DNA of 64,000 bases from contig JAQOOI010000018.1 of the NCBI GenBank assembly GCA_028554645.1, forward strand, positions 1,054,001-1,118,000. The letters are read 5' to 3'. The stretch comes from Omphalotus guepiniiformis (lineage: Eukaryota; Basidiomycota; Agaricomycetes; Agaricales; Omphalotaceae). Positions 23,185-64,000 of this stretch are shown here, piece by piece; the first letter of the stretch is position 1; each line of letters begins with the position of its first letter. The notes beneath the pieces were generated by a model, which was not told the DNA's origin, did no database searches, and saw only the letters and a list, made by a program, of their open reading frames with translations. A program made the position numbers and the translations under genes.

Positions 23185-24423
23185 TGATGTGCTTGGTATG
23201 GGGTATGAATGAGAAGAAGTGCTAACTAACTCGAATGAATCTATCAAGCACTCAAAACACACACACAACACACAAAGACTTTTAAGTTCGTGGGGTTTGG
23301 GGGACTAACAAACTCTGTGAAGCGAATAAGGTTGTTGTAAGAGGAACGCGGAGACACAGTCAAAACCAACGCGGCACAGATAACTCTATGCTACACACCA
23401 CTCAAACGAACTAACGCGTAACTTTAACAAATCACCGCGACCAGTGACTACAAACGATACAACAACCAGACGATTGTTGGGAGATGCCAGACGACTTCTC
23501 ACTTAGTGGAGTTGGGTATAGGAGGATTTCAGAACTGCCAGACGACGAGTTCAACGAGTGACCAGACGATCCACTCTTATTCGCACTACACACACAGGCT
23601 CCGCGGTACCAGACGATCCCGCTTGTAAACACTTAGGCACACTGACTTATGAACTAACGCGACGGTTAACACTTTAAAACTTCTAATCACTCAGAGGGAC
23701 TTAAGCTTTTCCACACACAAATGCTATTAGCTCTATGGGGGGCTCGGGAACCTGTCCTTCCTTGCCCAGGTTCTATTTCTTATATACAGTATCTCTATTT
23801 ACATAGTACAAACAAATGTCGCGATACTTGACAGTTATGAGATATATGGTGCATATGGTGCACCGCGTAAGGTAGGGATGAAGTATAGTACGCGGTAACA
23901 GGGTATCCTATATCGGGTTATAATCTTGCCGCTTTTAGAAAGTATCGCGGTAGTTCGCTAACGCTGTGTCTCCTTACGTGTTCTACTTCCGCGTCGTCGG
24001 AAGTACTTCGTGTTACATCGTACGTCTAGACCCTTCTGTGGCTCAACAGTGGTCATTAGATATGACTAGTGCACGGAGCTACTGCTACCTGGTTTCTAAG
24101 TCTGGCCTTCTGAGTAGTGCCGCGGTACCTCGTTACCTACGCGTTGGTTTATACAGTATTGGGGCCATCAAGTTATACACGTCGGACCTTAGAACAAGTG
24201 CCGCGACGCTTTACTTGAGTGCATACTTAGGTAATACCTACACTGAGAAGACCCATTTAGTGCCGTTCTACAGTCTTGTACACCTTTGTACACATATACT
24301 AGTGGTTGAATGTGCGTAATACACCGCGGAACTTAGGACTATACAGTGTACTTAGTAGGTTTGTACTGGAGTGATCAATCCCGCGAGGCCGAAAATGGTA
24401 GTGGTATTCCCGCGGTCGTATCA
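23185..24423 (-). repeat. element A 3' LTR
   Basis: 1239 bp, TGATACGACCGCGGG ... AAGCACATCA on the coding strand, directly repeated at 36304-37532. It contains many CGCG cores (CACCGCG, TACGCGG, GCCGCGGTACC and others). An open frame of 117 codons at 23966-24319, antisense to the element, is present in both LTRs and nearly complete in the old solo LTR. No domain is recognised in it. Confidence 0.93.
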
Positions 24424-24437
24424 TCTCCCCCTGACTA
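24424..24437 (-). other. element A polypurine tract
   Basis: Coding-strand TAGTCAGGGGGAGA immediately before the 3' LTR start TGATACG; it is the expected primer site for plus-strand DNA synthesis. Confidence 0.8.
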
Positions 24438-24804
24438 AAATATCGACTGTCCCAGTCGCTGGGGTCCTACTCAGGGTCTATCCCGGAAAGGCGCATCAAC
24501 CTCCCTTTTCTGGATATCACAAACTTCTTTCTGACTCATGTAGCGCTCTCCCTCCTTCTTGTCACATCACATGCCATCACGTTACCTTATTGGTAAATCG
24601 CCGCGTCTCTTCATTCCTCATCGTCCGGTTACGTTAGTTCCCGGACATACCGGTTATTCAGTTAATGGATTGCCATCGCTTCTTTGTCAAAGCTGTATGT
24701 CGTACCCTGAATAAGTGTGTAATACATCAAACTTTTGCTCTCGCGTCTTCTAGGAATGGAACTTGATACTGGCACCATTCTGAGGACCCCATCGCCGCGA
24801 GGTG

Positions 24805-24811
24805 TATATAA
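24805..24811 (+). promoter_or_regulatory. TATA box of antisense gene X1 (element A)
   Basis: TATATAA lies 64 nt before the X1 start codon on the plus strand. It supports independent antisense transcription of X1 rather than read-through from the LTR. Confidence 0.5.
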
Positions 24812-24868
24812 CCTTCAGCGCCCGGGTGTCGAACTTCAACTTTTTGCTCCCTCTTTCATCACTGGTTT

Positions 24869-27146
24869 ATGCCTATCAAGGCTGAACCCCTTGACTATAA
24901 CTCTTTAATAGTAAGTGACGCGGTACTTTTTGCGTGTCTTCTTTGCTTAGCTCCGTTTGATAGGCTTTTTCTCCTACTGCTTCTGAGGCCGCCTTTATTA
25001 TGCCTTCTTCTCAACCCTCGACTTCACGCGTACACAAACGAAGACGACGCGACGCTTCGCCTCGACCCTCTTCTACTTTGCCTTCCGTCCCGGACAGCTC
25101 ACAGCGGTCTATATCCGCCGCGGAGCTTATCTTGCTTGAACAGATCCGTACCGGGCAACTTTCCGTTCAACCTTCCGCGGTACTTCCCATTCCTTCGAAC
25201 ATTCCCGAGGCTTTAGCACCCGTACGCCGTCGTCGAGAGCGCCGTGATAAGGCTTTGTCTGTTCTCAAGAAACGTCGTGCTCGTCATCCTAGTCAATCTG
25301 CTCTGGTTAGTTCCGCGTTCGTTTTATCTGTTGTATTTAACTAACTTGCGGTAGCTTACTCCCGTTACCGCTGAGGATCAGGCGAAATTCGCCGATGACT
25401 TTTTGGCGTTCCGTGACGAGACCTATTCGCTCCCTCCCGCGACTCCTGTGCCTACTGCCGTTACAACTCGTCCGCGGCCTCCTCGTACTTTGTCTGACTT
25501 GGAGCGCCAACCCTGGCCCACACGTCTAGTAAGTACTCCTTTGTTCCTTGTCTACTAACTCTTCTTCTCATTCTTATCCTTAGTTTGACGACGAGGCGGT
25601 CGAGTCTTCCAACGAGGGCTCTCCTCCTGCTGCCAAGCGTCGCCGTGGCCCTTTGCGCAAACGAGTAGAGAGTGATTCTGAGGCTTCCGCGGAGCCTGAT
25701 AACTCCGTTGGTATTGTGGCTGCTGTATCCTCAGTGACGCGAGACTTGCCTCCCACAGCGCCAACTCCTCGCTTCGTGAGTAATTCCTGTTATTCCAACT
25801 AGTTTTACTCACTCTACTTCCCAGTCTTTTTCTCGTTCTCCCCCTCCTGTGGACTTATCGCAAGGGTTCACTGTTACTGCCGCGGAACCTTCGGTTCCTA
25901 CGAACCTTATTCCTGTCACTCCTACACGGTCCCCACTGGTGGAATCTGGTCCCGCGCCTCTCACTCCTTCTGGTGTCCCAGCCGCATTTTCTCCTCTGAC
26001 TAGTACCGTACCCGTTCCTCCTGCTGTACCTGTGCTACCTTCAACTTCCGCGGTTCCTTCTTCTGTGGCAGGACCCTCGACTTTCGTGGAGCCTCCTGCT
26101 ACTACTCAGGTTGGAACCAAGGTGAGTTCCTTCCCTGTTTAAGCTGCTTCGTTGCTTATTTCTTTTTCAGGGCAAAAGAAAAGCTTCGCGGAAGTCTAAA
26201 CTAGCGACAAAAACTACCGCGTCAACTATTCAAGAGGCCGACCGCTTTCGTACTCCCTCTCCTCGCCCAGGCGACCTCGAAACTAGACGTCGGTTCCTTC
26301 GTGAAGTCGAGGGTTACCCCCAATATTGGTACGAGAAAGTTTTCCCCGCCGCGGAGCACTTTGGTGCCTTTATTCCTCACAACCTTCATCCCATCGAGAA
26401 GGGGGACAAAGCCACCGCGGTGCCTACTACCGTAGGTGGCTCTTACGAAGGAGGGGTCCGCTGGTATACGGCTAACAACATCCCCGCAAATGGTTTCATT
26501 AACTATGACCTACCGGGTATGGTACCTCCGCTGATGACAAGTCACATTCGCCTTCGCCAGATTGTGGCTTCTTCCGTGAACCTGGTAAGTTCTTCGATAC
26601 TTTTTCTTCTTACTTCTCTGATTACTTCTTAGCCCTCCATTCGCTGTGGGTCGTGCATTATTCACGGCAAGCCTTGCGTCTTCGTCAAGGCCGGGGAGTC
26701 ATGTAACGAGTGTCTTAGCAAGAAGGACTCCGCGTGCACCTTTCGTTATGGGATTCGCAAGATCGCGTTGGAGGATGAAGCTTTTCACAACCGCGGACTC
26801 TTTTCTGCGCGCCGTATGTCTTCTCCCTTACTACTTTCCCTTTTCTCTGATCTTTCCTTTAGATGCTATGTCTCTGCAACTTGAAGCGTCAATGCTTACT
26901 GACCGCTTGAATGAACAAGTTGCCGCGATGCACGGTATTCAGAAAATGGCTCAAGCCAAGATCGACGAACTCGCGGATGTTTTAGTACAGGGTTACTATA
27001 ACTTCGGTCGCGACTATTTGACGCAGGTCCGCCTTAGTGGTGACCTTGCTCAAATGATTGTGGATGAGAAGATCCTGCCCGCCATCGAGGCTGGGCAGCT
27101 CAAATCAATCAACGCGGCATCCGAACATCAGGCATATCAGAAATAG
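24869..27146 (+). CDS. antisense accessory protein X1 of element A, Zn2Cys6-like
   Basis: Unknown family. Eight exons (24869-24910, 24964-25305, 25355-25528, 25584-25775, 25825-26121, 26171-26584, 26633-26813, 26863-27146) with 49-55-bp GT-AG introns give 641 residues in perfect phase. The first 390 residues are disordered: basic VHKRRRRDASP, AAKRRRGPLRKR, then Pro/Ser/Thr-rich. After a more structured segment (RRRFLREVEGYPQYWYEKVF) comes the six-cysteine cluster at about residues 492-522, C-x2-C-x6-C-x8-C-x2-C-x7-C. This fits the spacing of fungal Zn2Cys6 DNA-binding domains, although these usually sit at the N-terminus. A helical, probably coiled-coil tail follows. The gene is opposite to gag-pol and nearest the 3' LTR, the same place as in elements B and C. 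I infer a nuclear DNA-binding role; this is not shown. Confidence 0.72.
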
Positions 27147-27634
27147 TGGTCCCTGCCTTCTCTGTTCATTTTCTTGCTCTGGTTCCGCGGAAGTAAAAGC
27201 TCTTAGTCTCGTAGTGTTTGTAGTATCGCGGAGCTTGTTTTTTTTCTTTATTTTATTACTTGGAAATGTTATTAGCTTTGTCTCGAGTGATTTTAAACTG
27301 TGTGACATTTTCCTTGTTCTATAAAATCGAAAATATTCAATCAAGAAATTCTACGCGGCACTTTTCCCAAATTCCCGCGATTCTACGCGGTACTAAACTG
27401 TACGCGGTGCTTTCTATTCCTACGACCCTTCCCCATCTTTGAAATCACAACTGTCCCCAGTTGTTCAGAACACTCGCGACGCTTGGTAAAGTACCATATG
27501 TTCCACCGCGTCAACTTTGAAGGACGGTGCGCGGAATTAGAATTCTACGCGGACAAGTTTCCTTCTGGTCCAGACTGCCCTGGCCAGTTATAAAAGGACC
27601 TCCAAACACTAAGTTCTTCCTATCTGAATCACTT
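27147..27634 (+). other. spacer between X1 and X2 of element A, dense in CGCG motifs
   Basis: About 490 bp without a gene. It holds an unusually tight series of CGCG cores between about 27350 and 27555 (CTACGCGGCAC, CTACGCGGTAC, GTACGCGGTGC, ACCGCGTCAAC, CTACGCGGAC and others). A TATA box for X2 (TATAAAAG) is at 27589-27596, 39 nt before its ATG. Confidence 0.6.
27589..27596 (+). promoter_or_regulatory. TATA box of antisense gene X2 (element A)
   Basis: TATAAAAG upstream of the ATG at 27635 on the plus strand; a similar TATA box precedes X2 in elements B and C. Confidence 0.55.
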
Positions 27635-29074
27635 ATGTCTACTGATACTTCTTCTGTTGACGTCCAGTTTCTCGTGGAAGAGGTAGCACCTCTTTACAAG
27701 TCGTTTAGCGAGCGTCGAGTCAAACGTGGTGCCGACGATGCTAATCGCGTCGCGATGTCGTGTGCACAAAAACTCGCAAGTTTTCTAATGTTCTGCCTTC
27801 TGTTCCTGCGCCTTACTTCACTCTTTTTAGCTCGAGCTCTGGAAAGCTCACCCTGATGCCGCGTTGGCTAACGCTGACATTCGTACTTTCACTCTGTTCT
27901 TCTTTGAACAACTGCCGCGGGACCCAGTTACCGCGAAGTATACACCAACTCATCATTTACTTGGTCCGTACCGCGGTAAATGTGTTCAGTTTGGTAAACC
28001 CAAGGAGGTTCCCAAAGTCGCCGCGGCTGCTCCTGTTCCAACTGCTGTAACCCCAGTGCCCGTCAAAGGCAAAGGTCGCGTTCGTACTAGCCGCCGCGTA
28101 AGTAATCAGTTCTTTTTCTTGAATAACCACTGGTACTAAAACTTTTTCCTAGATTCGCAAGCGTATTGCATCCCAAGCTCGTATTGATAGTAGTGACGAG
28201 GAGGTTGACGACGACGCGGCGGGTAGCGATATTGCTATGGGTGACGATGAATCCCCCTCTATTGCAGATTCCACTACTAATACCACGGTAGGTCGCCACC
28301 CTACCCCGAGCCAGCTTGCTCTGTTGCTAAAACTATGTACCTCGCTTCAGACTCTCGACCTCGCAGCAGTTGAAGAAGTTACCCGCGTTGCCCCCTTTAC
28401 TCCAAAGGTTGAGCCTAGCGTCGCGGCAGTTAAAAGGGTACGACCACCATTCCTTCTCCCAATGTTATTCTGACTTAACGCTCCTTTCATAGCCTCACGC
28501 GTCGACTAATCACCTCGTAAGATATCTCCACTTTTCTGAGATACCACGCATGCTTATTACTTCACGGCAATACCTTAAGGCAGTTGCCGCGGTGGATAAG
28601 AGTACCATCAATCCTCCTGCCAAGAAAGCTAAGATGGAGGTGGTTAGTGTCGCGGCAGCTCCTCCTACTTGGGCGCACAACTTCTCTATGCTCGATCCAC
28701 CTCTGGCACCCCCTAGTACGTGTCACGTTTTCATACTGCCGCTAGCGACTTTTCAACTAACCTATCTTTTGGTAGACCCTGTCTCCACTTTCTCTAACTC
28801 GGTTGTGCAGTCACTCGTTGATCGTGCCAATCTCGCGGTGCTCGAACCCGTTAGTGGGCCTACTGATCGTAGCCTCACCATGCTGGAGTTCGAGACTCGC
28901 TCTAAACTTATCGCGGTCAACCATCAGATCAGTCTCCAGCTCCAAATGCGGGATTTGCTGATGAAGAGCTACCAGAGCATCGCGTCGCAGCAGAAGGAGC
29001 TGGTTAATAAAACTAACGTTCCCCTTATCGATATGACTGGCGACGAAGATATGCCCTCCGTGACTGATACTTGA
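27635..29074 (+). CDS. antisense accessory protein X2 of element A
   Basis: Unknown family. Five exons (27635-27775, 27831-28097, 28153-28437, 28493-28715, 28776-29074) give about 404 residues. The first intron appears to use a GC-AG donor (CTC-GCAAGT), because no GT donor keeps the frame. Features are an acidic DSSDEEVDDDAAGSD stretch, basic RTSRRIRKRI and PPAKKAKMEV patches, and a helical C-terminal part (LMKSYQSIASQQKEL) ending in an acidic tail. Position, orientation, acidic middle and helical C-terminus parallel X2 of elements B and C, but direct sequence similarity is weak, so the homology is inferred. It ends 220 bp from the end of pol, in a convergent arrangement. Within exon 4 a further small intron (28517-28579) is possible. 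Confidence 0.65.
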
Positions 29075-29294
29075 ACTGCTTCTGGAACTTTTCTTGTGCT
29101 TCCGCGACACTTTTTAATCTTCTTGTCGTGAATAGAGGTACCGCGTAACTTTCCGTTTCCCTTCCGCACTTGTATTCAACTATCGCGTAAACTTATTTAT
29201 TTCCAATTTGTCGCGTATATTTCAACATAACACGTACAGATCATACACTCGTTTTTATAATAAAACTGCCATGTGGCCCTATCTTTTGAGTGAT

Positions 29295-32200
29295 TTACTG
29301 AAAGATCTTCGGCTTCGATATCCAGTGCTTCGCGTCGTATACTGAAACGTCCGCGTGAATTTCACCATCTAGGTCTGCTTGATCGTGTTCTACGGATAAA
29401 TCTTCTTCTTCTTCTTCTAGACCTTGTTCAATTCTCAACAAGCCATCTTCTGACAAACCAATCAACTCACTTAGGTTCTCAGGGAGTTCAATGTGCGACC
29501 TTGGCCAATATGGAATTACGCGGAAGGCTCCGATTTTATTCTGGAACACCGCACCATTTAGGTCTGCCACAATGTAACTGCCACCTGTGGTACGCCTGAG
29601 TACTACCATAGGTCCTAAATAGCGCGGCTTCGTTTTAGAGTTCAAAGATTTTTCAATCTGAGTATTCCTAACTAATACCAAACTACCTGGCTTAAACGCG
29701 TAGTCTTTAATAACATACTTATACTCTTTTTCGAACTTCAACAACCGTGACCTTTTCTCGCGTGTTACGCGTTCCCGCAATTCAACTACGTGCTTCGCGT
29801 GCTTAGCCAATGCTTTCGCCCGTAGTCCAATTAGTTCCGCGTCACTTATGAAATGATCAGGATATTCTACAAGCCATGTTGCCTCAACGATATCAAAAGG
29901 TAGCGAGGGGTGCGCACCAGTTACTGCGAAGAATGGGGAGCACCCAAATCTCTTTCTTATGGTACACCTATCAGCCCACATTACTAAGTAGAAATAGTAA
30001 AACCATTTTGAATCGTCACCTCCCGCGGCCTTTATGAGACTGTGTCGCACATCATAATGCGCGTGTTCCACGATACCGTTGGCTTGGGAGTTATAAGGTG
30101 ATATGCGAATACCGCGCACGCCATATTTCTTCTCTAACCATTCCAACGCCTTTAGAAAAGGTCCGCCATTATCTGTTACTATCTCTATAAGACAGCCCCA
30201 GCGGCATATAATTTCTTCCCACAACCACTGCCCAATCGCTCTTGCGGACTCTGCTTTCAACGGTCTTCCTTCCATCCAGCCGGTTAACGCGCACCTACCA
30301 TGTACAATCAGCTTGTAGCCATTCGACGCCGGCATATACATGGTGTCAGCGTGAATTTTCTGAAAGATTGACGGTGTCTTCGTCTCGGTAGGAGGAATCC
30401 TGATCTTTGTCTTTTGTCTTACTTGGCACGTATGACAGGTCTTCACATACTCATAGATGTCTTTCTCCATTTCAGGCCACCAAAAGCGTTCCATAAGTAA
30501 GGATTTAGTAGCGAAGAAGCCGCGGTGCCCCAGACTATCATGACAAGCATGGATCATGGCGACGCGACGCGACTTCTCAACTACCAGCTTATGTTTTGCC
30601 TCAATTCCACGTCGATAGAGTTTTCCGTCTTGTATAAAGAAGTTCCGCGCTAACCTTAAAAAGTTCTTGAAGCGTTTGTTATTCTCATAGCCTACAGGCC
30701 TCTTAGAAGTGTCTGTTAGCCATTTGAAAACCTCCGCGACTGTTTTATCTTGGTTTATCGCTCCCTTCGATCGCTTAGACTCATCATACTCTGTTTCGTC
30801 AATATGCTCTGGTGGCTCCTCGAGTTCTGGTACTTCACTAGCCAAGTTCGCGGCTACAAACTGTTTTACTTCTGGTATGTCGCGGAACTCTCGTTCTTGC
30901 TTATAAGCACGCGTCAATTCTTCCTTAAAGTCGTCTACCGACGCGGCTAAACCAGTCATATAATTACTTTTCCATTCCTCTTTCTCATCAACTAATACTT
31001 GCGCGTAACCATGCTTAGAGTCAATCTTATCTACAAACTCCTCTAATTTATAGGGTTCTTGAACTTCACCATCTTCAGGATTGTCATACTCATCGTCTCC
31101 TACTTGCTTATCCCGCCGTGATAGTCCATCAGGTCCGTGAACCTTGCCTGGTACGTGCTTCAGTTTAAAATGAAACATCATGATCGACTCTATCCACCTA
31201 TTTATCGCGGCGTTTGGCATTTGATCAGGATGCTCTAACATGCCTTTAATGTACTTCGCGTCAGTTTCGATTATAAGGTTGCGAATACCAAACAACCAAT
31301 ACTGGCACGCTCGTAACGCGCGATACAAACCAAACAACTCCCGTTTCGGCTGTGAAAACCTAGCTTCGCGATCACTTAGTGTAATCGAACCGAATCTGGA
31401 GTAGAACCTTCGTCGCGGATTCTCTGGATCCACTTGACAAATATAGAACCCAACCGCTTTCCACGACGTATCTACTGCCAATATAACAGGGTCTTCCACA
31501 TCATACTTTAGTGGTCGTAATGCCTTGCTATTCTTTACTGCCTCTTTCAACTTTGCCAACGCGTCACTTTGCTCTTGTCGCCATTCGAACGGAATATCTT
31601 TACGCGTAAATCGGGTTAAAGGCTCCGCGATCTTTGCATAGTCTTTGACGAACATTCTTACTAGTCCCGCGGTGCCTAAGAATGGTCTTATATCCTTCTC
31701 TTCTAGGATATTCTCAGGTCCACCCCAGTTGGTAATAGTTTTCGCTCGTTCCGGGTCGATCTCTCTTCCTTCTCGTGTACACCTATGTCCGACCACGGTA
31801 ATCTCGCTTTTACACAATACAGCTTTGGGGCCTGAGAAAGTCCCACCACAGTACTTCATTCTTTGAATGACTCTATTCATATTGGTGAAATGTTCCCAAA
31901 TAAACCTCCGTATCCCATCATTACCAGGAATGGTCTCGTACGTACCATCTTCACTTTGATAAGTCGTTTCAGGACCGCGTACAGGAACATCATCGATGTA
32001 TGGTTGCGTAAACTCCGGGATCTCTTCTTGTAATATGTGTGTTACATCATCGTGGAAGATTGGTACTGAATTCGTCCATCCCATCGGTAGTGTTACTAAC
32101 CTCAGGGCTCCAAAGGGAGTCTGGAATGTAGTTAAGTCTCGCGATGCTATTGCCAACTCTCTTTCATCATAGCCAACATATAAATCTAGAATTCCTCCAC

Positions 32201-33260: not shown

Positions 33261-34444
33261 AAACCCTGAGTCTGTTCCTTGTCTTTGCTTATAGGTACAG
33301 AACCTTTCCCTCTCTCATAGGTAGGTACAACAGCTCGCTTCTTAGTGTTAGGGTCCTGAATAACGAGGTCCTGCGTTCCATCTGCATGATTATCCACTAA
33401 ACTCTCCGTGATCGTGTCAAAAGGCCGTCCCAGTAGCAATTCATATGCGGGGTCTCGAATTACATGTACTTGTAAGTACACGGTGATTCCGCCTAGTAAG
33501 AATGGTACATTACGCGCCAATCCCAAAGACTTCTCAACACCCTTGTTAGCCGATTGCATAAAGATTACTATGTCCGGGTCCCACGATAAACCTGCTTCGC
33601 GAGCTCTTTTCTCCGATGTAGAGATAATCTGTGAACCCGAGTCTAGTAGACTTTCGATCTTCGCGGTACCATTTACCAAAGGATACACGCATCGAAGCGA
33701 CTCTGAATCTCTTGCCACGTAGATCTGAATTGGGTTATCTTTGCTTCCCAGGCTTTCCACGTACTGTTCAACTGGATCGCTAATCACAACCGCTCCTGCT
33801 GGAAGATCTCCTTCCGCCTGTTTCAGAACAAAAACTTCCGCAGTGACATTAAGGTCAGCTAACGCGACTGTATTTGCTGTTACGTGAACCTCTCCTACAT
33901 TTTCCTCGCTAAAAGGTAATAGGGGGCTTTTGGCTAGGATCTCTCTCAAACCTCCCGCGGTCTCTTCAGGCTTCAATTTGACTCTTGACTTGATCGTTCC
34001 TCTGAGTGAAATTTCTGATTCCACTACTGTTTCTTCCGCGTCAGGATGTTTAGTTAACGGAATAACAGGAGACTCCGCGGCCTTCTCATTCCTTGTCTTC
34101 CAAATTATCCCCCTCGGGTTCTCTAACCGCTCTTTCTGAGCTTTCAGTTTCTCTTGCTCAGTTGGCGAATACGACACATCAGGTACGTTCGCGTAAGGAA
34201 CCTCTGGTACGCGGCTCTTCTTCACTACTGTAGGTAGCGGAGGCATCTCGACACCATCGAATCTCAAACGTTTTTCCCTCTTGACCAACTCCTTATACTT
34301 ATCTTTCTCTAGGCTCGCGTCCTTCTCAGGTTCCGCGTCCTTTTCTTTCCACAACCGTCGTTCATTACCCTTGTTTTCAGTATCATTCTCAGGTGCCGCG
34401 GCCCTAACAGGATTTTTCTCTTTTGTAGGGGCCTGGCTTTCCAT
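33239..34444 (-). CDS. element A aspartic protease (retropepsin-like) polyprotein segment
   Basis: Frame of 401 residues with an ATG 8 nt after the gag stop; the frame is also open upstream into gag. The N-terminal 230 residues are charged and probably disordered. The protease domain has the active-site motif LLDSGSQIIS (about residue 265) and the flap/ILGR equivalent ELLLGRPFDTI. It would cleave Gag and Pol. The frame ends 19 nt after the heptamer GGGTTTT (33266-33260), where a -1 shift leads exactly into pol. A second heptamer before the gag stop suggests this protein is also joined to Gag by frameshifting. The alternative is reinitiation at the ATG. Confidence 0.88.
   Translation of the reverse strand: MESQAPTKEKNPVRAAAPENDTENKGNERRLWKEKDAEPEKDASLEKDKYKELVKREKRLRFDGVEMPPLPTVVKKSRVPEVPYANVPDVSYSPTEQEKLKAQKERLENPRGIIWKTRNEKAAESPVIPLTKHPDAEETVVESEISLRGTIKSRVKLKPEETAGGLREILAKSPLLPFSEENVGEVHVTANTVALADLNVTAEVFVLKQAEGDLPAGAVVISDPVEQYVESLGSKDNPIQIYVARDSESLRCVYPLVNGTAKIESLLDSGSQIISTSEKRAREAGLSWDPDIVIFMQSANKGVEKSLGLARNVPFLLGGITVYLQVHVIRDPAYELLLGRPFDTITESLVDNHADGTQDLVIQDPNTKKRAVVPTYERGKGSVPISKDKEQTQGFSAASRN
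33260..33266 (-). promoter_or_regulatory. -1 frameshift heptamer between protease and pol (element A)
   Basis: G-GGT-TTT in the protease reading frame, a canonical X-XXY-YYZ slippery site. The zero-frame stop follows at 33241-33239, and the -1 frame is pol. Confidence 0.65.
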
Positions 34445-34452
34445 CCTCGAAC

Positions 34453-36216: not shown

Positions 36217-36281
36217 CCGCGACTATAACTCTTCGGTCTCGTACGAAACCTAAAACACTTTACTTAGTTTATTAATCAGAA

Positions 36282-53083: not shown

Positions 53084-55004
53084 TCACCTCTCCGGACTAT
53101 CCTCTGCCAGGATCCGACCAACGCTTTCCTCCTCCACCGGGGAACGGGCGGTGTTGAGTGTCGTAATGGTAGGGAGGGAGGATGGAAAGGAAGAACCAGC
53201 CGACGCAGGTACCCGGGAAGATGAAGCATTCGCCGAAGAGCAAAGAGGCACGAGAGCCGAGGTTACCATGCGCTCGATGGTGCTGCGAGTGTCGGATTTA
53301 GAGAAGTCGAGGGGAAGGCGCGACGAACTCGGTTGGATCTGAAAACCAGTCTCCGTTTTCACCAAGCTCGAGTCTCGATCCAAAACCGACATGTCCCAGC
53401 CCAAGCCCGCGCCTATCATCTTCAAATCTTCGATTTCGTCCTTGAATGAAGGGTCGTTACGATGAAGAATGTTGAAAAGAAGGGTAGGATCGGTGACTGA
53501 ACCACGAAGGTGCTCCTGGTCCCGCTCGATGGACTCGCGAAGCTTGTTGGCGTTGTCGGCGAGGTCCAAGACGCTGCGGCGAAGTTGGTCGTATACAGAG
53601 ATCTTCTCGACGAGACCAATAACTTCTGCGCCGAGGTCTGAATAAGGAGGAAATGAGAAAAGATGTTAAATAAAAAGAAATAAATGATTAAACTTACTAT
53701 GAGAACCTTGACGAGCCAACCCGTAGATCGTATTTCGCATCTCGAGGGCACGAGCCGGCGTCAGGGTCCATGAACAAGGTTGCCTGCTTTTGAAGCAGAC
53801 GGCGCATTTGTAGGAGGTGCTCTGTATTTCGGGCGGGACACACTTCTCTGCTGCGTGAGCTGCGGTACATCGCGTACATGGCAAGCTGCCAGTGAGCTAT
53901 AAAAGATAAATGAAAGAGTAATAAAATAAATAAGAAAGAGACTTACTGCGTCGATGGTTCGAGTTGCATGGAGCAAGTCGGCAAGGTTGAAGACCGTGTC
54001 GCTAGCAGGATGTGTGAAGAGGCCGGCCTCGGAGACCTGATGAGAAGGACCAGCCCTCGCTGATGAAGCAGGAGCAGGGGTCGGCGACCTTTCGCTAGCA
54101 ACAGGAGATGGCTCTTTGGGAGTCGGGGCCTTTGCCTTAGGCTTGGGCTTCGGTTTGGGCTTCACTGCGCGAACGGGTGGACCAGTCTTGAGTGTTTTGG
54201 AAGGAGTGGACGCGCGAGGCTTCTTAAAAGAGAAGAGATCCATGTCGTCGTCGTCTTCTAGCAGCTCGAGCGCTCGCTTTTTCGAAGTCAGAACAGGCTA
54301 GAATATGAAAGGATATAAGAAAGAAATTTGAAGGGAATAGGAAGAAGAAAACGAACCTCAGGCTTGACTTGGACGGACTCGTCGTCAGACTCGAGGACCT
54401 CATCCTCTGAGTTGCTAAGAACGGTATCGTCGTCGCCACAATCGTCGCCGAGGATGGTATCGAAGTCGTGAAACTAGGAAATTATATTGAATAAGATTAA
54501 AAAGATTACGGTGGAATAAGGACTTACAGGCTCGAGACTATGTTTCTCCTGTTGATCGTCCTTCGAGATATACCAACCAGTCTTGTGAAGAGATGGGAGT
54601 CGAGATTCGAGGGGGTTGCAAAGTCGCACTAAAGCTAGCCACACCGGGCGCACATGCGGACAGAAATCCTCGATGTCGAAGTCGACGTGCTCAAAGAGAG
54701 TATCCTAGAAGAGAAAATGTAAGAATGAAAGATTAAAACTATAAGAAATACAACATACCATGAAGGGAGTGGCACTTTCCACGGCCTTGGTCATTTCTGA
54801 GACCTTGGGGGGATTCTTTCGTGGTTTATCAAAGTAACGACGATAGACGTCGACAATACATGCGATGACTTCATTGGCTTGTTCGTGAGGGTTGATCTGC
54901 GCGGTCTTTCGACCGGCTCGAGTTTTCTTGGCCACTGCCGAAATTTGAGAAGAAGAGGCTGCTTTGCCCTTCCCTTTGGAAGCTTTGCCGGTAGTTCGCG
55001 CCAT
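53084..55004 (-). CDS. antisense accessory protein X1 of element B, Zn2Cys6-like
   Basis: Unknown family. Six exons (55004-54759, 54704-54528, 54473-54357, 54297-53947, 53896-53698, 53637-53084) encode 547 residues. A basic start (MARTTGKASKGKGK) leads into an ordered segment (FCPHVRPVWLALVRLCNPLE), an acidic stretch (DDCGDDDTVLSNSEDE), and the AT-hook-like tract KPKPKPKPKAK shared with X1 of element C. The six-cysteine cluster follows at about residues 304-338, C-x2-C-x8-C-x11-C-x2-C-x6-C, ending in SW as in element C. The next helical part includes DQLRRSVLDLADNANKL and GLGWDMSVLDRDSSLV, matching GWDINLVSRASYIA in element C. The gene is opposite to gag-pol and starts about 0.5 kb inside the 3' LTR. 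DNA binding is inferred from the Cys pattern only. Confidence 0.78.
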
Positions 55005-55512: not shown

Positions 55513-57008
55513 TGTTGCGCTGAAAATGCATACACACCTGAAATACCTGAAATTAAACGATTTCTACTGTGAATATGATGGGAATAAAGGGCTAGACTAT
55601 GTCCCATAGTGCTAGCTAAAACATAGAACACGAATAGTTAAAGGCTCGAAGTGAAAGGACTACGATGTACGAGTATGCATCAAGACCTTATGGCTGATAT
55701 GCCTCTAGACCTTCGGCGAAGTAACTACCTGCTGCGAGACTGTACAGTATGGTCAGACCCACCCTGCCTGGCAAAGAGCCCTTCGTCTGGAAGTCGCTAT
55801 TCAAGTATCTGTGTAATCCACGGGACTTAGGAAGGAAGAAAACTACACACACACAGGCGTAATAGCCTCATGAGCCTCGATAATGTCGAAAGGACAAAGC
55901 TAGAGGTATCACCGAGCCATCAAAATGGTTTGTTCGAACTTAGCCGACCTCCTAGAACCTGCAGATTGATGATATACTGGAGATAACGCTTTATGATCGG
56001 AAATATATGATCGACGATTCCGTTCCGAGATACTAGATGGTCAAAGCTATGAAAATGATCAGTCTCGATGACTGTATAATAACTTATTAGTAAAGTAATG
56101 ACAGAATTGACCTTCGAGCGCTGGATATTGGTATATCTACGAGGTGCTATGGGGTCTAGATGTCGAAATAGGAGAAAATACGGAAGCCCGACGGGATGAA
56201 TGACTAGAAACTGCCCTCGGCGCCCCTATAAGTACACTGTAAAACAGTTACGAAGATGAATAATAACGAAATGCATAGGAGTAGTTCGTTTAGAATGGCT
56301 CGAGCGCATGATAAGAAGGGTCTAGATGTACCAAAAAAACATCACTAAAACATAATACTTACACATATATACCCAAGAACTGCACATAATTACCCTCTAG
56401 ACGTGCCTACTTACCCAACTCAGTCATATTGTTTCTGTTTATATCCATTTTATACTCGATGTTATCCCTCTGTTCCTTTTAATTACTCCACTCAGTTTTC
56501 TATCTATTTATGAAATACTTACAAGCAGTAGAGTACATATACTGTCATGTATAGGGTCGAGCGCCCCAGGTTACGACTGCCCGCCAAATTGGAGAACTTT
56601 ACGTATCTTCTAGAGCGTTAAATCGCAGAAGGCCTCTTGATTGTGAACGTCAGGCCCCGGTTCTTCGAGCTGGTAGAGGCGGACTATTAGGAATTGCAGT
56701 GCTTTAATAGAGTGCTAAATATCTGAACATCTGTTGTGTTTGAACTGTCTGTCTGTCTGTCTGTCTGTCTGTGTCTGTCTGTCTGTGTCTGTCTGTCTGT
56801 GTCTGTCTGTTTGCTGTTTCTGGTACTCGTCGAAGGGTCTAGACGGTGATCTTACAGTTCAGTTAGTCTTTCCAACAGTCTAGCTCGACTTTAGTCAGTT
56901 TTCTGCGTGCGGAATCTTTGCCAACGCCAGACTACACTCGCTTTTACAAGGCAACCTTTGAGTTTAGACGAGTTCCTACGTCTTAGAGTGCTCATTACGC
57001 TGCTATTA
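55513..57008 (+). repeat. element B 3' LTR
   Basis: Matches 41915-43409 with one extra A in GAAGAAAACTAC and GTATCACCG in place of GTATCGCCG. It is followed by the target duplication GCGC at 57009-57012. Confidence 0.95.
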
Positions 57009-57012
57009 GCGC

Positions 57013-57302
57013 TTGGATGGGACATCAACCTGGTGTCTCGAGCAAGCTATATCGCTAGGAACGAATCTGGTCGTTTCGTCGTGGTGGATCCAGAGGTCGA
57101 GCCGCAGCCCAGTCCTTCCAATATCCGTTCCACTCCCGTTGCTACAGTCATCGACGAATCGCCTCAGGCGGTCGGTGCCTCGCAAGTCACGGTTGAAGAG
57201 GATGAGGACAAGGAGGACGAGTTGGAGGAAGAGACAGCCGGGAAAGTCCTGGTGCCAGAAAGCAGTCCACTAGCTGGGAGGGACGATCCCCTCTCAGAGT
57301 GA
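57013..57302 (+). pseudogene. 3' end of X1 of element C, separated by element B
   Basis: The sequence TTGGATGGGACATCAAC continues the X1 reading frame interrupted at 41914. It encodes GWDINLVSRASYIARNESGR, an acidic tail and a TGA stop at 57300-57302. The same GLGWDxxxL block ends X1 of element B. Without its first part and promoter it should not be expressed as X1. Confidence 0.8.
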
Positions 57303-58144: not shown

Positions 58145-59546
58145 ATGGCCCCTAAAGGTCCCAAGACTTGGCCTGAGCGTCCTGAGTGGGTTGCCACAAC
58201 GCAGCGATATCTTTCTCGAGCTACTGGAGCCATGGAGGCCAAAGATGCGGATACTGAACTGCTTGGGATGCTTATTACAGCCCTTGCTAGTCATCTTGTA
58301 AATGTTCAATCTTTGATTCCAGGTCCAGTCTCTAACTTGATTTCTTAATACAGAAGAAGTCTCTGCCTGCATATGCAGTTGCTAAGTCCGAGGAAGCGTT
58401 CACTTTGTTCGACAAAGGTGTCAATCTGGTCGCAGATGCAGTCAAGAAGTTCCCATCTGTAGGTGAACCTGACACTTTCTCCGCCATTAAAGCTTTCCGG
58501 GACGACTTGGCAAAGCGCAGAGAGACTCTTAGTGGGTCTAAGAAGCGCAAAGTACGTTTTTATTGACCATCCCTCTCATTTCGAGTATCTAACTGCCTAT
58601 CGGTGTGTAGCCAGCTAAAACTCCCGAACTTATTGAGGATGACGATGATGACGATGAAGAGATTGAGGTCATTACTGGTGACGGAGACGTTACTGTAAGT
58701 ATCTAACTCCTTGGTTACTGAGTATCTAACTCAAATCCCAACATGGTCTTTCTTTTCTCAGATGGCAGATGGACCTTCCCTTGGGCTTTCTGCGTCGATC
58801 CACGCTCCCAATAAGGATAACAAGGACTCTAGCAAGGACAAAACCAAAGGTTCTCCTACTACTACCACAGTTCAGAAGTCTTCCAAGGAAAAAGTAGTAA
58901 TTACTTCTCCAAGGGTAAGCAGATTTATGTTCAGAACTGTTCATTCGTTTCTCTTGACTGATGTACCTTGGTAACTTTTCAGGCTACCTCAGTTGGACCC
59001 AAAGATGTAAGTTTTTAGTTCCATCTGGAGATATTCATGCAGTTTTATGTACTGACTATAAATGTTCATGTAGAATGAACCTATTCCTGAGCCCCACAAG
59101 GTGATTGTCATGAAGAAGCCTCGGATTGAGAACCCAATCGTCAACCTTAGAGAGGAGACAGACCGTGAGTAGTCACCCAATCTGCGGCTTTTTCGAGTAT
59201 CTAACTCAATTATCCTGCAGATGAGCGCAAACTCCGGGAGAGTGGAGAAGAGATTGTGACTCGTATCACTGCTCTGTTCCCTTTCATGGACTTGGACCAC
59301 TTCTCTCCTGAGGTTCTTCAATCAATTTCCAACTTCTTGAAGACAGAACTCAGTGTTCATCAACATGCCATTCAGTATCATCATTCTCAGTACAGATTTG
59401 CCTACAAGGAGTTTTCCCGTCTGGAATTGCTCCGAAGACAGAAGGAGAAGGCTTACAGGGCCAACCAGAGTCCCTTGGAGTCTGGTCCAGGTACTGCTGA
59501 TGATCCAGCTCCTTTCCATGCATTTCCATCTGCAGACATTCTCTGA
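58145..59546 (+). CDS. antisense accessory protein X2 of element C
   Basis: Unknown family, clear homologue of X2 in element B. Seven exons (58145-58297, 58354-58551, 58611-58694, 58762-58914, 58983-59006, 59074-59164, 59221-59546) give 342 residues. It begins MAPKGPKTWPERPEW (compare KTWPERDQW). The acidic exon carries LIEDDDDDDEEIEV, then LGLSASIHAPNKD (compare LGLSASMHAPSQE), a Lys/Ser-rich linker, and the helical C-terminus LSPEVLQSISNFLKTELSVH. Exon 1 (153 nt) and the acidic exon (84 nt) have the same lengths as in element B. GTATCTAACT motifs lie in introns 2, 3 (two copies) and 6. It converges on pol, with 202 bp between the stops. The function is unknown; the protein is probably nuclear from its basic and acidic patches, which is inference. 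Confidence 0.8.
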
Positions 59547-59748: not shown

Positions 59749-62700
59749 TCATTTATTTTGTGAAGATTGGGACCTAGTCTGGACTGGAGCGTCCCAATCT
59801 GGTTCTTCTTCATCTGCATCGTTTGCAGATTGTAGTTCTTCATCACTGGACTCATCAAGATCTTCATCTTCAGCAGGAATTCTCAGTTGAGGAATACTGT
59901 CAAAGATGTAATCTCTCTCAAGTTCAGGGTCTAACTCAAAGTTATCATTGACCATCTCTTCTAGTTGTTCACTAGTTAGGTCTATAAGTTCATGAATGTT
60001 CTCAGGCAGTTCAATTGGTTCATATCTAGCTACATGGGGTAGTACTCTGAAGGCAGCAACCTTTTCTCTGAGTACTGTGCCATCCATCTGGGCCACAATG
60101 TAGGATCCCCCTTTGGTTCTCCTTATTACAATCATGGGTCCCAGGTATCTAGGATACATTTTTCTGTCCAAGTTCTTCTCAACTTGTGTATTTCTGACTT
60201 GTATAAGTGTACCAGGTTTGAAATCAAAGTCTCTGATAACATTTCTGTATTCTTCTTCATATTGTCTAAGAGTCTCTTTCTTGGTTGTATCAATTCTAGA
60301 TATCATTTCCTGCACATGGGTTCTATGCTTAGCTAGAGCTTGAGCTCTGTAGCCAATAAGTTCCTCATATGTCAAGATTCTATCTGGAAGTTTTACTAAC
60401 CATGTAGATTCAACAATATCCAAGGGTAGGATAGGTTCAGCTCCAGTAACAAGGAAGTATGGTGAACATCCAAGTCCTTTTCTAGCTGTAATTCTATCTG
60501 CCCAGAAGACATGTTTGAGGAACCACCACCATCTCTTTAGATCTCCACCTGTAGCTTTTGCCAAGGCAGTTCTAATGTCAAAGTGGGCTCTCTCAATCTT
60601 GCCATTTGCTTGGGAATTGTAAGGAGATATAGTAATTCCTTTAATTCCATATTTATCTTCTAGCCATTTAAGCATAGCTCGCATCTGGGGTGCATTATCA
60701 GTTACTACTTCATCAGGACATCCCCATCTGCATATAATATCATCAAAGAACCATTCTCCCAATGATCTAGCATTGTCAGATCTTAAGGCTCTTCCTTCAG
60801 ACCAGGATGAGAGTGCACATCTGCCATGTACAACATCCTTGCAACCATTACTTGGAGGTGATACTTTGAACACATCTACATGAATCTTCTGAAACAGGGA
60901 GGGAGTGTGTGTAAGAGTAGGAGGAATCTTCAACAATTCTAATTTTCGGTTCTGGCAGATTTGGCAGGATTTGACAAACCAATTGACATCTCCATTCAAA
61001 TCTGGCCACCAAAAACGCTTCTCTATGAGAGCTTTTGTTGCAAACATTCCTTTATGTCCCAGATGGTCATGAGCAGCATGCATCATGTACATCCTTTTCT
61101 CTTTAGGCATAACCAGTCTATGCTGGCCTCCTGTATCATCATTCCTTCTATAGAGTCTCCCATCTCTGTCTACAAAGAACTTTACAGCCCTGGAAATGAA
61201 CTTTTTCATAGCAGTCTCACCTAGGTGAGCTAGAGGCTGATTGCCCTGCAGGTACCAATCTTTGATTAGGTCGAGTTGTTCATCCAGTTCCTTTGTAGAT
61301 GCAGATCTGTGATCCTCTCTATATGGGTGTTCATGTTTCCATTCAGTACCTCCTTCAGGTATAACCAAGGTCTGTGCAAACTGCAACATCGAGTTAGATA
61401 CTGGATGTTGAATTGCTAACAGCTCTCTAATGGAATTCAAGTGACGTTCTTCTTCAAGAGCTTCTTGCAAATCGTCTTCAAAGTCGTCTATTGACTTTGC
61501 AACTTCCTGCAAGTAACCACCTCGAGTATCTATTTCATCTTTAAAGGCTTCAAAATCAAAGGGTACCTCAGATTCACCATCTCCCATTCTGAATTTCACC
61601 GGCAGACCATCATCTTCATCAACAAATGAATCCGGATCTCTAGATGCCGCTCTTTCAGTTGGTATGGTTCCTCTAGGTGGTCTAGATAGTCCATCTGGTC
61701 CCTTATGTTCAGTGCCCTTGATGTGTACCAAGGTGAAGTGGAACTTCCTTATTTCTTCAATCCATCTGTTTATAGTTGCATTGGGACCACTACTGGGTTT
61801 GTCAAGCATTCCTTTAATATAGCTTGCATCTGTTTCCACAGTAAGATCCCTACATCCATATGTCTGGTAGTATGTTTGTTGTAAGGCCAACATCAAGCCA
61901 TATAGTTCTCTCTTGGGTTGAGAAAACCTTGCTTCTCTCTCATTTAAGGTAATAGAACCCATCCAATTGTAGAACTTTTTCTTTGAATCTGCAGGGTCTC
62001 TCTGATATAGTTGGAAACCTACTGCCATCCAGGAAGTATCTACTGAAAGGGTGATTCCAGTACTTAAATCATAGTCAATAGGACGGAGTGCTGGAGCATT
62101 CCTAATCCCATCTTTAATCATTTCTACAGCTTCCAATTCTGCAGGACCCATTTGAAAAGGTACATCTCCAGTTAAGATTGTCAAAGGTTTTGCTTTCTTG
62201 GCATAATCCTTTATGAACATCCTCATCTGACCAGCAGTGCCCAAAAATGACCGGATATCTTTCTTCTCAGACCATTTTGATGCATCACAAGTCAGGACAA
62301 CTTCAGCTAGCCTTTCCACTGGCTTTTCTCCTTCATAACTGACATGATGTCCAACAACATCACCTTCAGCTACACAGATGAAAGCTTTGGTCCCTGCAAA
62401 GGTACCACCAGCATGTTTCATTCTTTGCACAATTCTGTTCATATTCTGCAGATGCTCCCACACAAACCTTCTGATGCCAGAATTTTCAGGGATAGTTTCA
62501 TAACCTCCATCTGCAGTTTCATATCTGCTGACAGGCCCTTTTACTGGTACATCATCAATGTAAGGTTTAGTTACATGTGGAATTTCATCTCTGAAGATAT
62601 ATGTAACATCATCATGATAGATAGGGACAGAGTTTGTCCAACCCATAGGTAACTTCACTAATCTATGTGGGCCAAAAGGTGTTTGGAAGGTGGTAAGATC

Positions 62701-63849
62701 TCTTGAACTTTCATCAACCAGCCTCTCATCATACCCAACAAAGATATCCAGTAAACCCAAACATGCTCTTCCAGAGAAGCTTCTAGCTATATCTGCAGTT
62801 GCAGGAGGAATCCCTGAATGTTGAATAGTCACTTTATTGAGTGGTTCTAAACTATGGACCAATCTTAAGCTTTTCCCATCTTTCTTTAAGACACAGAACC
62901 ATCTGGATCTATAGGATGAACTAGAAGGCTCATATACACCAGCATCTATTTTGTCCTTAATCATTTTACACACTTGATCATAGATCCCTGGAGGTATAGG
63001 GATATTCCTTTCTACCCAAGGAGTGTGTGGTAACACTGGAAACTTTACTGGAGGAAAGAACTCTGTATTAAAGGTTCCTCCTTCAGATGCTTCCCATGCA
63101 AATGCTTTTTCTTGGACTTTCATAAGATGGTGTACAAGTTTCATTTCTTCAGGCCATAAGAAACCTTCATTATGATTCTTGTCTACAATTTCTTTTCTTT
63201 CTTGAGAGTACCTCTCACCAGGAGTGAAATCTGGAGGATGAGTAGGTAACTCAGGCATATCTTTTAACGGATCTCCAATTATTTTTCTTTCAATCCGGAA
63301 CTCCGCAGGTAAGGTAGCTTTAACAGGTTTGACCTTAATAGCAACTGGTTTGTACTTTCTAGAAGCCAAAACAGTCACCAATCTGGCCATTTTGTTGCCA
63401 TTCTTATCTCTACTCCATCTGGGTCTTGAAGATTGGACAGGTTTAGGTTCCCTTTTGACCTTTTTACCCTTATTCATCCTCTTTTCAGTTCCAGATGCGG
63501 GTTCCAAAGTGTGATTAAGTACCGTGCAAGTATCTAAGTCTGAATTCTGAGTATCTAAGTGCTCTTTTGAATTCAAATTTAAATTTTCTCGCCAGGTACA
63601 GAACACTTGTTTCTTTTCTGAGTCTACAGACCGATTTAAATACGATCTAACCGAATCTGCAGCCGCCATATCGTTTTCTCTTATGATGGATTCAGCTGCA
63701 AACACAAATGCCTCAGCCTTTTCAGGTTCTGAAAACAATTCATTGTCTGGCAGCTTATATCCAGCAATTGTGGCATTGCCATCTTCATCCATTTCAATAC
63801 AAACAGCTACCTCTCCCTGATCTCTTATCAGTTCATTGAGGTCCGATGA
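59749..63849 (-). CDS. pol: element C pol: reverse transcriptase, RNase H, integrase
   Basis: Open frame of 1366 residues from the predicted frameshift point; the first ATG in frame is at 63792. The N-terminal extension includes KYKPVAIKVKPVKATLPAEF. The RT has VLPHTPWVERNIPIPPGIYD, LVHSLEPLNKVT, LPMGWTNSVPIYHDD and catalytic YIDD. RNase H has LSVDTSWMAVGFQLYQ, KRELYGLMLAL, VETDASYIKGM and GPDGLSRPP. The integrase has HAAHDHLGH ... CQIC and the D-D-E residues in HVDVFKV, VTDNAPQM and NGKIERAH, then GPMIVIRRTKGGSYIV. It is very similar to pol of element B, with an intact active site throughout. It is interrupted neither by element B nor by stops. The acidic C-terminus ends QTRSQSSQNK. Confidence 0.95.
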   Translation of the reverse strand, partial: SSDLNELIRDQGEVAVCIEMDEDGNATIAGYKLPDNELFSEPEKAEAFVFAAESIIRENDMAAADSVRSYLNRSVDSEKKQVFCTWRENLNLNSKEHLDTQNSDLDTCTVLNHTLEPASGTEKRMNKGKKVKREPKPVQSSRPRWSRDKNGNKMARLVTVLASRKYKPVAIKVKPVKATLPAEFRIERKIIGDPLKDMPELPTHPPDFTPGERYSQERKEIVDKNHNEGFLWPEEMKLVHHLMKVQEKAFAWEASEGGTFNTEFFPPVKFPVLPHTPWVERNIPIPPGIYDQVCKMIKDKIDAGVYEPSSSSYRSRWFCVLKKDGKSLRLVHSLEPLNKVTIQHSGIPPATADIARSFSGRACLGLLDIFVGYDERLVDESSRDLTTFQTPFGPHRLVKLPMGWTNSVPIYHDDVTYIFRDEIPHVTKPYIDDVPVKGPVSRYETADGGYETIPENSGIRRFVWEHLQNMNRIVQRMKHAGGTFAGTKAFICVAEGDVVGHHVSYEGEKPVERLAEVVLTCDASKWSEKKDIRSFLGTAGQMRMFIKDYAKKAKPLTILTGDVPFQMGPAELEAVEMIKDGIRNAPALRPIDYDLSTGITLSVDTSWMAVGFQLYQRDPADSKKKFYNWMGSITLNEREARFSQPKRELYGLMLALQQTYYQTYGCRDLTVETDASYIKGMLDKPSSGPNATINRWIEEIRKFHFTLVHIKGTEHKGPDGLSRPPRGTIPTERAASRDPDSFVDEDDGLPVKFRMGDGESEVPFDFEAFKDEIDTRGGYLQEVAKSIDDFEDDLQEALEEERHLNSIRELLAIQHPVSNSMLQFAQTLVIPEGGTEWKHEHPYREDHRSASTKELDEQLDLIKDWYLQGNQPLAHLGETAMKKFISRAVKFFVDRDGRLYRRNDDTGGQHRLVMPKEKRMYMMHAAHDHLGHKGMFATKALIEKRFWWPDLNGDVNWFVKSCQICQNRKLELLKIPPTLTHTPSLFQKIHVDVFKVSPPSNGCKDVVHGRCALSSWSEGRALRSDNARSLGEWFFDDIICRWGCPDEVVTDNAPQMRAMLKWLEDKYGIKGITISPYNSQANGKIERAHFDIRTALAKATGGDLKRWWWFLKHVFWADRITARKGLGCSPYFLVTGAEPILPLDIVESTWLVKLPDRILTYEELIGYRAQALAKHRTHVQEMISRIDTTKKETLRQYEEEYRNVIRDFDFKPGTLIQVRNTQVEKNLDRKMYPRYLGPMIVIRRTKGGSYIVAQMDGTVLREKVAAFRVLPHVARYEPIELPENIHELIDLTSEQLEEMVNDNFELDPELERDYIFDSIPQLRIPAEDEDLDESSDEELQSANDADEEEPDWDAPVQTRSQSSQNK

Positions 63850-64000
63850 AAATTTTGAGAGTCTCCCTCATTTTTCACAGGGACACTCGCAGATTTCTGT
63901 GTTTCTGGGACAAGCTTTGGTTCACCAGGAATAGGTTTAACCTTAATTCCTCTACCTCTGTCATATGTTCCCATTGTACACTTCATTCCACTGTTTGGAT
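63828..64000 (-). CDS. element C protease segment, C-terminal end only (cut by window edge)
   Basis: The last 57 codons of the protease frame are visible: PNSGMKCTMGTYDRGRGI matches the same region of element B (PNSGMTCTMGTYERGRGI). The stop TGA is at 63830-63828. The frame contains the heptamer AAATTTT at 63855-63849, from which -1 reading continues in pol. The active site lies outside the window. Confidence 0.8.
   Translation of the reverse strand, partial: PNSGMKCTMGTYDRGRGIKVKPIPGEPKLVPETQKSASVPVKNEGDSQNFHRTSMN
63849..63855 (-). promoter_or_regulatory. -1 frameshift heptamer between protease and pol (element C)
   Basis: A-AAT-TTT in the protease frame, identical to element B, with TCA as the first codon in the -1 frame. 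Confidence 0.7.

Follow-up and report, generated by a model that had tools for sequence, protein, structure and literature searches.

The window analysed here, a stretch of 64,000 nucleotides (nt) from the genome of the basidiomycete Omphalotus guepiniiformis (assembly GCA_028554645.1, contig JAQOOI010000018.1, positions 1,054,001 to 1,118,000 of the forward strand), contains three apparently nested, putatively Ty3-like long terminal repeat (LTR) retrotransposons, A, C and B, each of which carries two spliced antisense genes in the interval from pol to the 3' LTR, with X1 lying nearer the LTR than X2. We propose, with a probability of roughly 0.5, that X1 encodes a zinc-cluster DNA-binding protein which acts on a short motif particular to its own element family, probably to counteract silencing. 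The proposal starts from four observations, namely the genes themselves, the purifying selection upon them, the exchange of X1 as a cassette between otherwise near-identical elements and the paving of the elements with family motifs, and from these we infer DNA binding, the motif bound, the anti-silencing role and the reason for the exchange.

The original prediction, made from the letters and open reading frames (ORFs) of the window, had described two multi-exon antisense genes in the same order in each element, and our gene models agree with it, allowing for the insertion of B into C (Table 1). Introns in these models are 48-68 nt long with mostly good consensus sequences (a single 113-nt exception is in X1C), and TATA-type boxes were found upstream of X2A (-46), X2B (-111), X2C (-103) and X1A (-64), with none within 160 nt upstream of X1B or X1C. 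X2A has two models, of which the 362-amino acid (aa) version was used for searches and profile comparison and the 404-aa version for codon counts. The further claim that all three pairs form one common module stood for B and C, which show homology for X2 (E 5e-40) and, over the Cys cluster together with the helical part, for X1 (E 4e-15), but not for A, whose X1 and X2 have no detectable homology to their B and C counterparts (hhalign probabilities 0.6% and 0.3%, over very small alignments) and which has only gene position, gene order and the X1 Cys pattern in common with them. One of the features said to be common to X1 of B and C also needs correcting, as C reads ALGWD and not GLGWD. Structure prediction gave a helical C-terminus for X2 (predicted local distance difference test, pLDDT, 74), and the zinc exon of X1A, modelled by itself, gave an unusable result (pLDDT 51).

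A six-frame scan with the loose pattern C-x2-C-x5..11-C-x5..14-C-x2-C-x5..9-C, with results from 17 sources including the window, found exactly three occurrences within the 64 kb, one in each X1, and across all the sources hit X1-type genes only, seven of them (A, B, C and loci L069, L070, L073 and L075; related loci, here given L numbers, were sought in 42.5 Mb of genome, in which the window lies within contig C18). The spacing C-x2-C-x6-C-x5..12-C-x2-C-x6..8-C, which we take to be that of fungal Zn2Cys6 factors (PF00172), fits X1A and the L075 gene, while X1B and X1C differ in having longer first loops. Zn2Cys6 factors often read CGG triplets, and the motifs CGCGG and CCGGA, which pave A and L075 respectively, both contain CGG; the motifs of B and C, with their longer first loops, do not, and this link between Cys spacing and a CGG-containing motif, drawn across four families, is offered as a lead only. 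At the Pfam cut-off no family, including TRP28 and bZIP, was matched by X1A, X1B, X1C, X2A, X2B or X2C. Searches of a protein database with the conserved half of X1A and with X1B returned no relatives, which are weak negatives, since spliced genes may be missing from records most of which are possibly single-frame calls, and since low-complexity tracts probably swamp the query words of X1B; a pol control did recover agaric elements from the same database (1442 relatives among 7991 scored, the named ones among the best 120 being in Lentinula edodes, Armillaria ostoyae, Moniliophthora perniciosa and Mycena chlorophos). Nothing meaningful came from PDB searches made with the same half of X1A and with the Cys exon of X1B.

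The fourth family is represented by L075, where an antisense two-exon gene encoding 477 aa with a Zn2Cys6 cluster lies beside a reverse transcriptase (RT) match at C74:927146. This gene passes the Pfam Zn_clus cut-off narrowly (21.5 bits against 21, with 26.9 for the domain alone); it is antisense to the RT, the end of pol and the LTR being presumed. A TATAAAAG box stands about 75 nt upstream of the gene, and the CCGGA paving spans the gene and ends at about 2.5 kb. Beyond the paved part, at 2501-5301 of L075, is an ORF which by eye resembles a DDE transposase.

A search for over-represented words returned a different result for each family. Host densities given here are those of the first 15.5 kb of the window, which was taken as host DNA without individual verification of its genes. 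CGCGG occurs at 10.3 per kb in A, whereas host DNA has 1.0, B 0.3 and C 0.4 per kb. It recurs in all 11 A regions counted (8-23 per kb in ten of them, 4.4 in one) and is spread evenly over the two strands (66 sense hits and 63 antisense in eight regions), which speaks against an RNA packaging signal. Shuffling of synonymous codons, which preserves the protein and its codon usage, gave 6.9 CGCGG in polA against 32 observed (z 9.9) and 2.8 in gag of A against 15 observed (z 7.2), with none of 500 shuffles reaching the observed count in either gene, and GCG makes up 42 of the 85 alanine codons of polA, compared to 4 of 72 in polB and 3 of 82 in polC. The shuffles, together with the rarity of the same letters reordered (57 CGCGG against 2-23 for its permutations), rule out GC content or codon bias as the sole cause. 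When all 5- and 6-letter words occurring at least six times were scanned, the best z values were 10.1 and 8.4 in polA, 3.2 and 4.6 in L001, a family with no motif, 3.7 and 4.3 in an ORF of the window taken as host, and 4.1-6.7 in polB, polC, L002, L003, L007, L004 and L006. The motif of B, CTAGAC, occurs at 2.6 per kb (host 0.2), and ATCTGC and AGTATC occur in C at 2.7 per kb each (host 0.4 and 0.5 respectively), while L002, L003, L007 and L008, found by RT search and used as controls for the motif test, are themselves paved with CCGGA at 6.9-13.2 per kb. CGCGG, CCGGA and CTAGAC are each largely confined to their own family, and the paving is decisive in A and moderate or weaker in B and C. 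As a separate observation, CCAGACGA is present five times in each A LTR (23185-24423 and 36304-37532) and is absent from the other A regions counted.

It could be argued that X1 has some unrelated job and that the reader of this paving is a host factor or a different element protein, such as integrase or nucleocapsid, or that the paving is a mutational by-product. In A, besides CGCGG (148), CGCGT (96) and CGCGA (87) are raised. A core of CGCG is therefore possible and would cover ACGCGT-like sites, which in yeast are bound by host cell-cycle factors, and the L004/L006 motif family has no X1-like gene in the stretch examined. We nevertheless consider this explanation unlikely, as the alike strands speak against an RNA packaging signal, the synonymous shuffles and reordered letters fall far short of the observed counts, and a general mutational bias would not be expected to favour different motifs in different families within one nucleus.

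Exchange of X1 became apparent when A was aligned with L069 and L070 and identity taken per sliding 150-nt window. Against L070, A is 98.7-100% identical per window over the LTR and leader, falls to 39.5-72.7% in windows 24985-27384 (X1 with its introns) and returns to 96.7-100% from 27835 onwards (one 16-nt end stub excepted), with 99.87% identity over a further 3000 nt of pol, protease and gag. The borders, at 24.82-24.87 kb and 27.82 kb, enclose X1, the X1-X2 intergenic region and the first exon and intron of X2, and over 23185-34947 this cassette is the sole differing part; LTR identity to A is 99.6% for L070 and 98.6% for L069. Rapid evolution in place is ruled out as the source of the divergence, as introns and synonymous sites diverge too and the borders are sharp: synonymous divergence (dS) between A and L070 is about 2.0 in X1, near saturation, against 0.017 in X2. 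CGCGG sites in the LTR, in X2 from exon 2 and in the compared part of pol are all common to A and L070, while the two X1 forms contain 28 and 30 sites of which only 10 are in common, so that motif density (12-13 per kb in X1 across the X1 types) is kept while positions turn over. L069 and L070 lie in tandem (C74:731500-753300) with different X1 types and with about 12.6 kb between the starts of their 3' LTRs, and one LTR may be common to both.

Counted by eye among the genome matches listed, an A-like X1 (95-96% identity to the query) is present at at least 13 loci, a 56% type at at least six, a 53% type at at least five and further types of 49-53% at at least three. Loci of the 56% and 53% types, 11 among those counted, have X2 at 94-96% and 98-99% over two long conserved stretches, for which A's own copy scores 95% and 99%. 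In L023 and L024 the X1 exons show 78-88% nucleotide identity and X2 exon 2 shows 97-98%, the LTR of these copies (L027, L029) being at 98%, and L017 is a recombinant which joins an A-type X1 to X2 exon 1 and intron of the L070 type. The same gene differs in B, where comparison with L073 gave 94.7-100% per window in the LTR (from 56560), X2 (from 52810) and pol, and 50.7-68.1% in X1 (54910-53111), this alternative X1 being known from a single inactivated copy with one in-frame stop in X1 and one in X2. In the C copies listed X1 varies most in its middle (residues 216-388 at 74-90%, the tail mostly at 95-99%), with X2 at 95-99% in the main group and a separate subfamily in which X2 is at 77-80% and the X1 tail at 63-69%.

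Selection between these forms is purifying, which had been set out in advance as a check on whether the genes are maintained. X1A and L024 differ by 239 synonymous and 135 nonsynonymous changes, with a ratio of nonsynonymous to synonymous rates (omega) of 0.126 (bootstrap 0.091-0.165), falling to 0.024 in the core (residues 386-487) and with 23 synonymous to 0 nonsynonymous changes in the zinc exon; against L070 omega is 0.18 and the zinc exon has 32.5 synonymous to 13.5 nonsynonymous changes, and against L069 the zinc exon count is 32 to 13. For X2A against L069 omega is 0.127 (bootstrap 0.048-0.234). Exons of L069, L023, L024 and L026 were chosen automatically and include doubtful stretches, codon figures for L073 X1 are approximate (its in-frame stop was bypassed by the gene model) and those for X2B against L073 were excluded as invalid, an internal stop having shifted the alignment, and the X1 allele comparisons leave out L071 (truncated) and L072 (decayed). 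The X1 ORF is intact in 12 of 13 near-identical type-1 A loci (L010-L022, with L011 being the window's own intact copy), and a 2-nt frameshift is present in X1 in 3 of 6 type-2 A loci (4 of 7 records). In L010 (C14:246671-250354) the 5' end of X1 is lost and the DNA there is no longer A-like. The integrity of these ORFs and the motif paving support the suggestion of the original prediction that the genes serve the element itself, although the function proposed here is our interpretation.

The exchange may have been neutral, arising when templates were switched between jointly packaged RNAs of related families, after which the recombinants multiplied with no need for selection on X1 variety, and we regard this as a serious contender with a little under an even chance. 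Conserved flanks offer switch points, L017 is a clear recombinant, and every part of X1 has an omega below 1 with no codon-level sign of an arms race or of positive selection. A neutral process is less easily reconciled with A and L070 differing in this cassette only, with the same gene being hit in B (albeit in one inactivated copy) and with X1 of C varying most in its middle. Alternatively, X1 might be a self-limiting repressor which binds its own family, the exchanged forms being immunity groups that escape repression by resident copies; this would account for gene-sized exchange between near-identical backbones and for several X1 types coexisting in one genome. It appears improbable, as the LTR and the motif are constant across X1 types, with no repressor-operator switch of the phage type seen, and as no part of X1 is better conserved than the zinc exon.

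It is very improbable that X1 and X2 were captured from the host and perform a host function. They are multi-exon with normal fungal introns, as such genes would be, but their place and order are alike in three families, they have no Pfam relative at the cut-off, the X1A and X1B pieces have no relative in the protein database or PDB, and among the genome matches listed, read by eye, no clear stand-alone host homologue was found; homologues of this type, had they predominated, were named in advance as refuting a role in the element. Most of the listed X1 and X2 matches adjoin one another. Matches to X2A without X1 are at C8:208254, C53:105905, C16:1066157 and C18:255060, matches to X1 without X2 are at C36, C78:260618, C53:212536, C16:169743, C12:547257 and C74:976296, and X1B tails without X2 are at C35 and C31; of these single-match loci three were looked at further, and C12 is truncated, the C18 copy is decayed and similarity to A at C36 ends beyond X1. 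No related loci were found in viral or prokaryote contigs.

We favour X1 as an element-encoded DNA-binding protein, and a possible course of events would be as follows. An antisense promoter beside the 3' LTR would yield the X1 protein, of fungal zinc-cluster type, which would recognise the short family motif accumulated over the LTRs, spacers and silent codon positions of the whole element, mark and open the chromatin of its own family and so allow gag-pol transcription to escape silencing, with X2 as a smaller partner gene. Anti-silencing seems the likeliest role by analogy with VANC (PMC5735166, available to us in part), as paving over the whole length rather than at the promoter suggests an effect on chromatin and not on the control of transcription start. 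In family A the zinc exon (85-100% of residues kept), the motif and its density are retained while the rest of X1 persists in very old alternative forms that move between element backbones by recombination. The variable part is unlikely to set DNA specificity, since LTR and motif are constant across X1 types in A, and our guess is that it meets a host partner, itself probably variable, which would be the reason for the exchange.

Several results weigh against this proposal. X1A scores 9.5 bits against Zn_clus (E 1.4), under the cut-off of 21, and X1B and X1C are not matched at E 1; and omega, below 1 in every part of X1 as noted above, gives no codon-level sign of an arms race. The best 6-letter word of polB is TGAGAA, followed by GGTCTA, AGACCC and GCTAGA, and not the family motif; the three CTAGAC in the spacers of B are reached by 15 of 400 simulations, so that enrichment there is not clear; and CTCGAG is present six times in X1B and is absent from X1 of L073 (palindromes counted on both strands). 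For C, ATCTGC is significant in polC and AGTATC is not (38 of 500 shuffles reach its count), and AGTATC is not confined to C, with 2.4 per kb counted in the LTR of A and 2.0 per kb in L003. The element part of L075 also contains CGCGG, at 3.2 per kb. Lastly, no Cys cluster was found for the L004/L006 family, the motif of which, ACTTCT, is moderate, in 5.2 kb of L076 (C48:29300-34500). An antisense 197-aa open frame (minus strand, plus positions about 3-593) adjoins the pol of this family in L076, and CGCGG-rich, A-LTR-like DNA starts at about 4.5 kb.

The features of the window are listed in Table 1. A is in minus orientation, and C apparently interrupts its 5' LTR near the end; B sits within the X1 gene of C with an apparent CGCTG target duplication, and no second C LTR was found within the window. 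Of the features looked for in a Ty3-like element, the LTR pairs of A and B and the RNase H and H2C2 finger of all three pols were found, but the pols have no RVT_1 or rve match at E 0.01 in a Pfam scan and represent a divergent lineage. The protease scores above the Pfam cut-off in B and below it in A, and the B protease ORF also matches DUF4100 (E 1.5e-7), a Pfam family that may thus belong to elements of this kind. Two LTRs, both apparently solo, lie at 15511-18602: one of A type (92-93% to A) and, interrupting it at 15935-17783, one of C type that matches 37529-39376 at 98% in inverted orientation. A CTGT microsatellite is present in each B LTR (43146-43210 and 56745-56809).

Table 1. Elements, antisense genes and associated features in the window (positions as numbered in the window).
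Feature	Position	Strand	Details
X1A	24869..27146	+	8 exons, 641 aa, Zn2Cys6-like
X1A Cys cluster	26645..26737	+	C-x2-C-x6-C-x8-C-x2-C-x7-C
X2A	27635..29074	+	5 exons, 404 aa; alternative 7 exons, 362 aa, two extra introns
X1B	53084..55004	- (start 55004)	6 exons, 547 aa
X1B Cys cluster	53774-53878	-	six-frame pattern scan
X2B	51000..52324	- (start 52324)	6 exons, 354 aa
X1C, part before B insertion	39681..41916	+	Cys cluster 41434-41547
X1C, part after B insertion	57003..57302	+	tail resumes at about 57003
X2C	58145..59546	+	7 exons, 342 aa; homologous to X2B
Exchanged cassette, A vs L070	24870..27820		X1, X1-X2 intergenic region, X2 exon 1 and intron 1; flanks about 99-100%
CGCGG paving of A	23185..37532		148 strand-hits (30 palindromic CCGCGG counted twice; about 118 places), 10.3 per kb
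A 3' LTR	23185..24423	-	99.8% repeat of 36304-37532; TG...CA ends read from sequence
A pol	29295..33242	-	RNase H, H2C2 integrase finger
A aspartyl-protease-like ORF	33239..34444	-	score under Pfam cut-off
A gag-like ORF	34453..36216	-	called by position
A 5' LTR	36304..37532	-	repeat of 23185-24423; apparently broken near end by element C
C probable 3' LTR	37533..39376	-	98% to inverted copy 15935-17783
C pol	59749..63792	-	RNase H, H2C2 integrase finger
B 5' LTR	41915..43409	+	99.87% repeat; boundary approximate
B gag-like ORF	43731..45398	+	called by position
B aspartyl-protease ORF	45407..46759	+	Pfam protease match above cut-off; also DUF4100
B pol	46933..50808	+	RNase H, H2C2 integrase finger
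B 3' LTR	55513..57008	+	repeat of 5' LTR; boundary approximate

The antisense gene HBZ of human T-cell leukaemia virus 1 (HTLV-1), near the 3' LTR, encodes a bZIP protein that is a nuclear regulator; in contrast, the X1 and X2 proteins scanned gave no bZIP match at the Pfam cut-off. Antisense genes at this place are already known from plants and fungi. In excerpts of PMC11963269 and PMC7264820, plant Ty3 elements of the Retand lineage have antisense ORFs between pol and the 3' LTR in 97% of clusters, with DNA binding suggested for their products. The likeness of these TRP28 ORFs to X1 and X2 is that of an antisense coding region at the same place; here TRP28 is absent, the genes are spliced, the LTR-proximal one is zinc-cluster-patterned and exchanged, and the element is paved with a motif, whereas the Retand elements, as far as those excerpts go, have tandem repeat arrays in about half of cases instead. 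The Boty retrotransposons of Botrytis are fungal LTR elements with an additional antisense gene, brtn, and this single named gene, compared by description only from passages of PMC7264820 and PMC8365987 that cite it, qualifies the statement in the original prediction that no fungal retroelement with a conserved spliced pair of this type is known; a spliced pair with a zinc cluster was not found in our literature search. Another parallel may be VANC of the Arabidopsis VANDAL elements, for which the sections of PMC5735166 available to us report both binding and demethylation as demonstrated, and which resembles X1 in having conserved and variable protein parts and a short motif that differs from family to family, highly abundant in the cognate elements and seldom met outside them. 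VANDALs, however, are DNA transposons with motifs mainly in non-coding tandem arrays, while here the motif is dispersed over the whole element, including gag, protease and pol. That literature search, which covered titles and the starts of abstracts with subscription journals thinly represented, found no fungal antisense zinc-cluster retroelement gene, no motif paving of a whole element, no whole-gene exchange between near-identical copies and no family motif at the silent codons of a retrotransposon.

Beyond the VANDALs, little is known of the means by which a transposon distinguishes its own copies from other DNA of the genome, and here a single genome shows both a candidate protein and its possible address motif, in four families that serve as natural replicates. 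We tentatively suggest, at rather less than even odds, that fungal LTR retrotransposons may have independently evolved a self-recognition code, in which an antisense zinc-cluster gene would be matched to an address motif written more than 100 times into the element, including its silent codons, and the variable part of the protein would circulate as ancient interchangeable forms in the manner of mating-type or immunity alleles. The exchange of X1, if true, would be a rare instance of one retrotransposon family maintaining a single accessory gene in several ancient versions.

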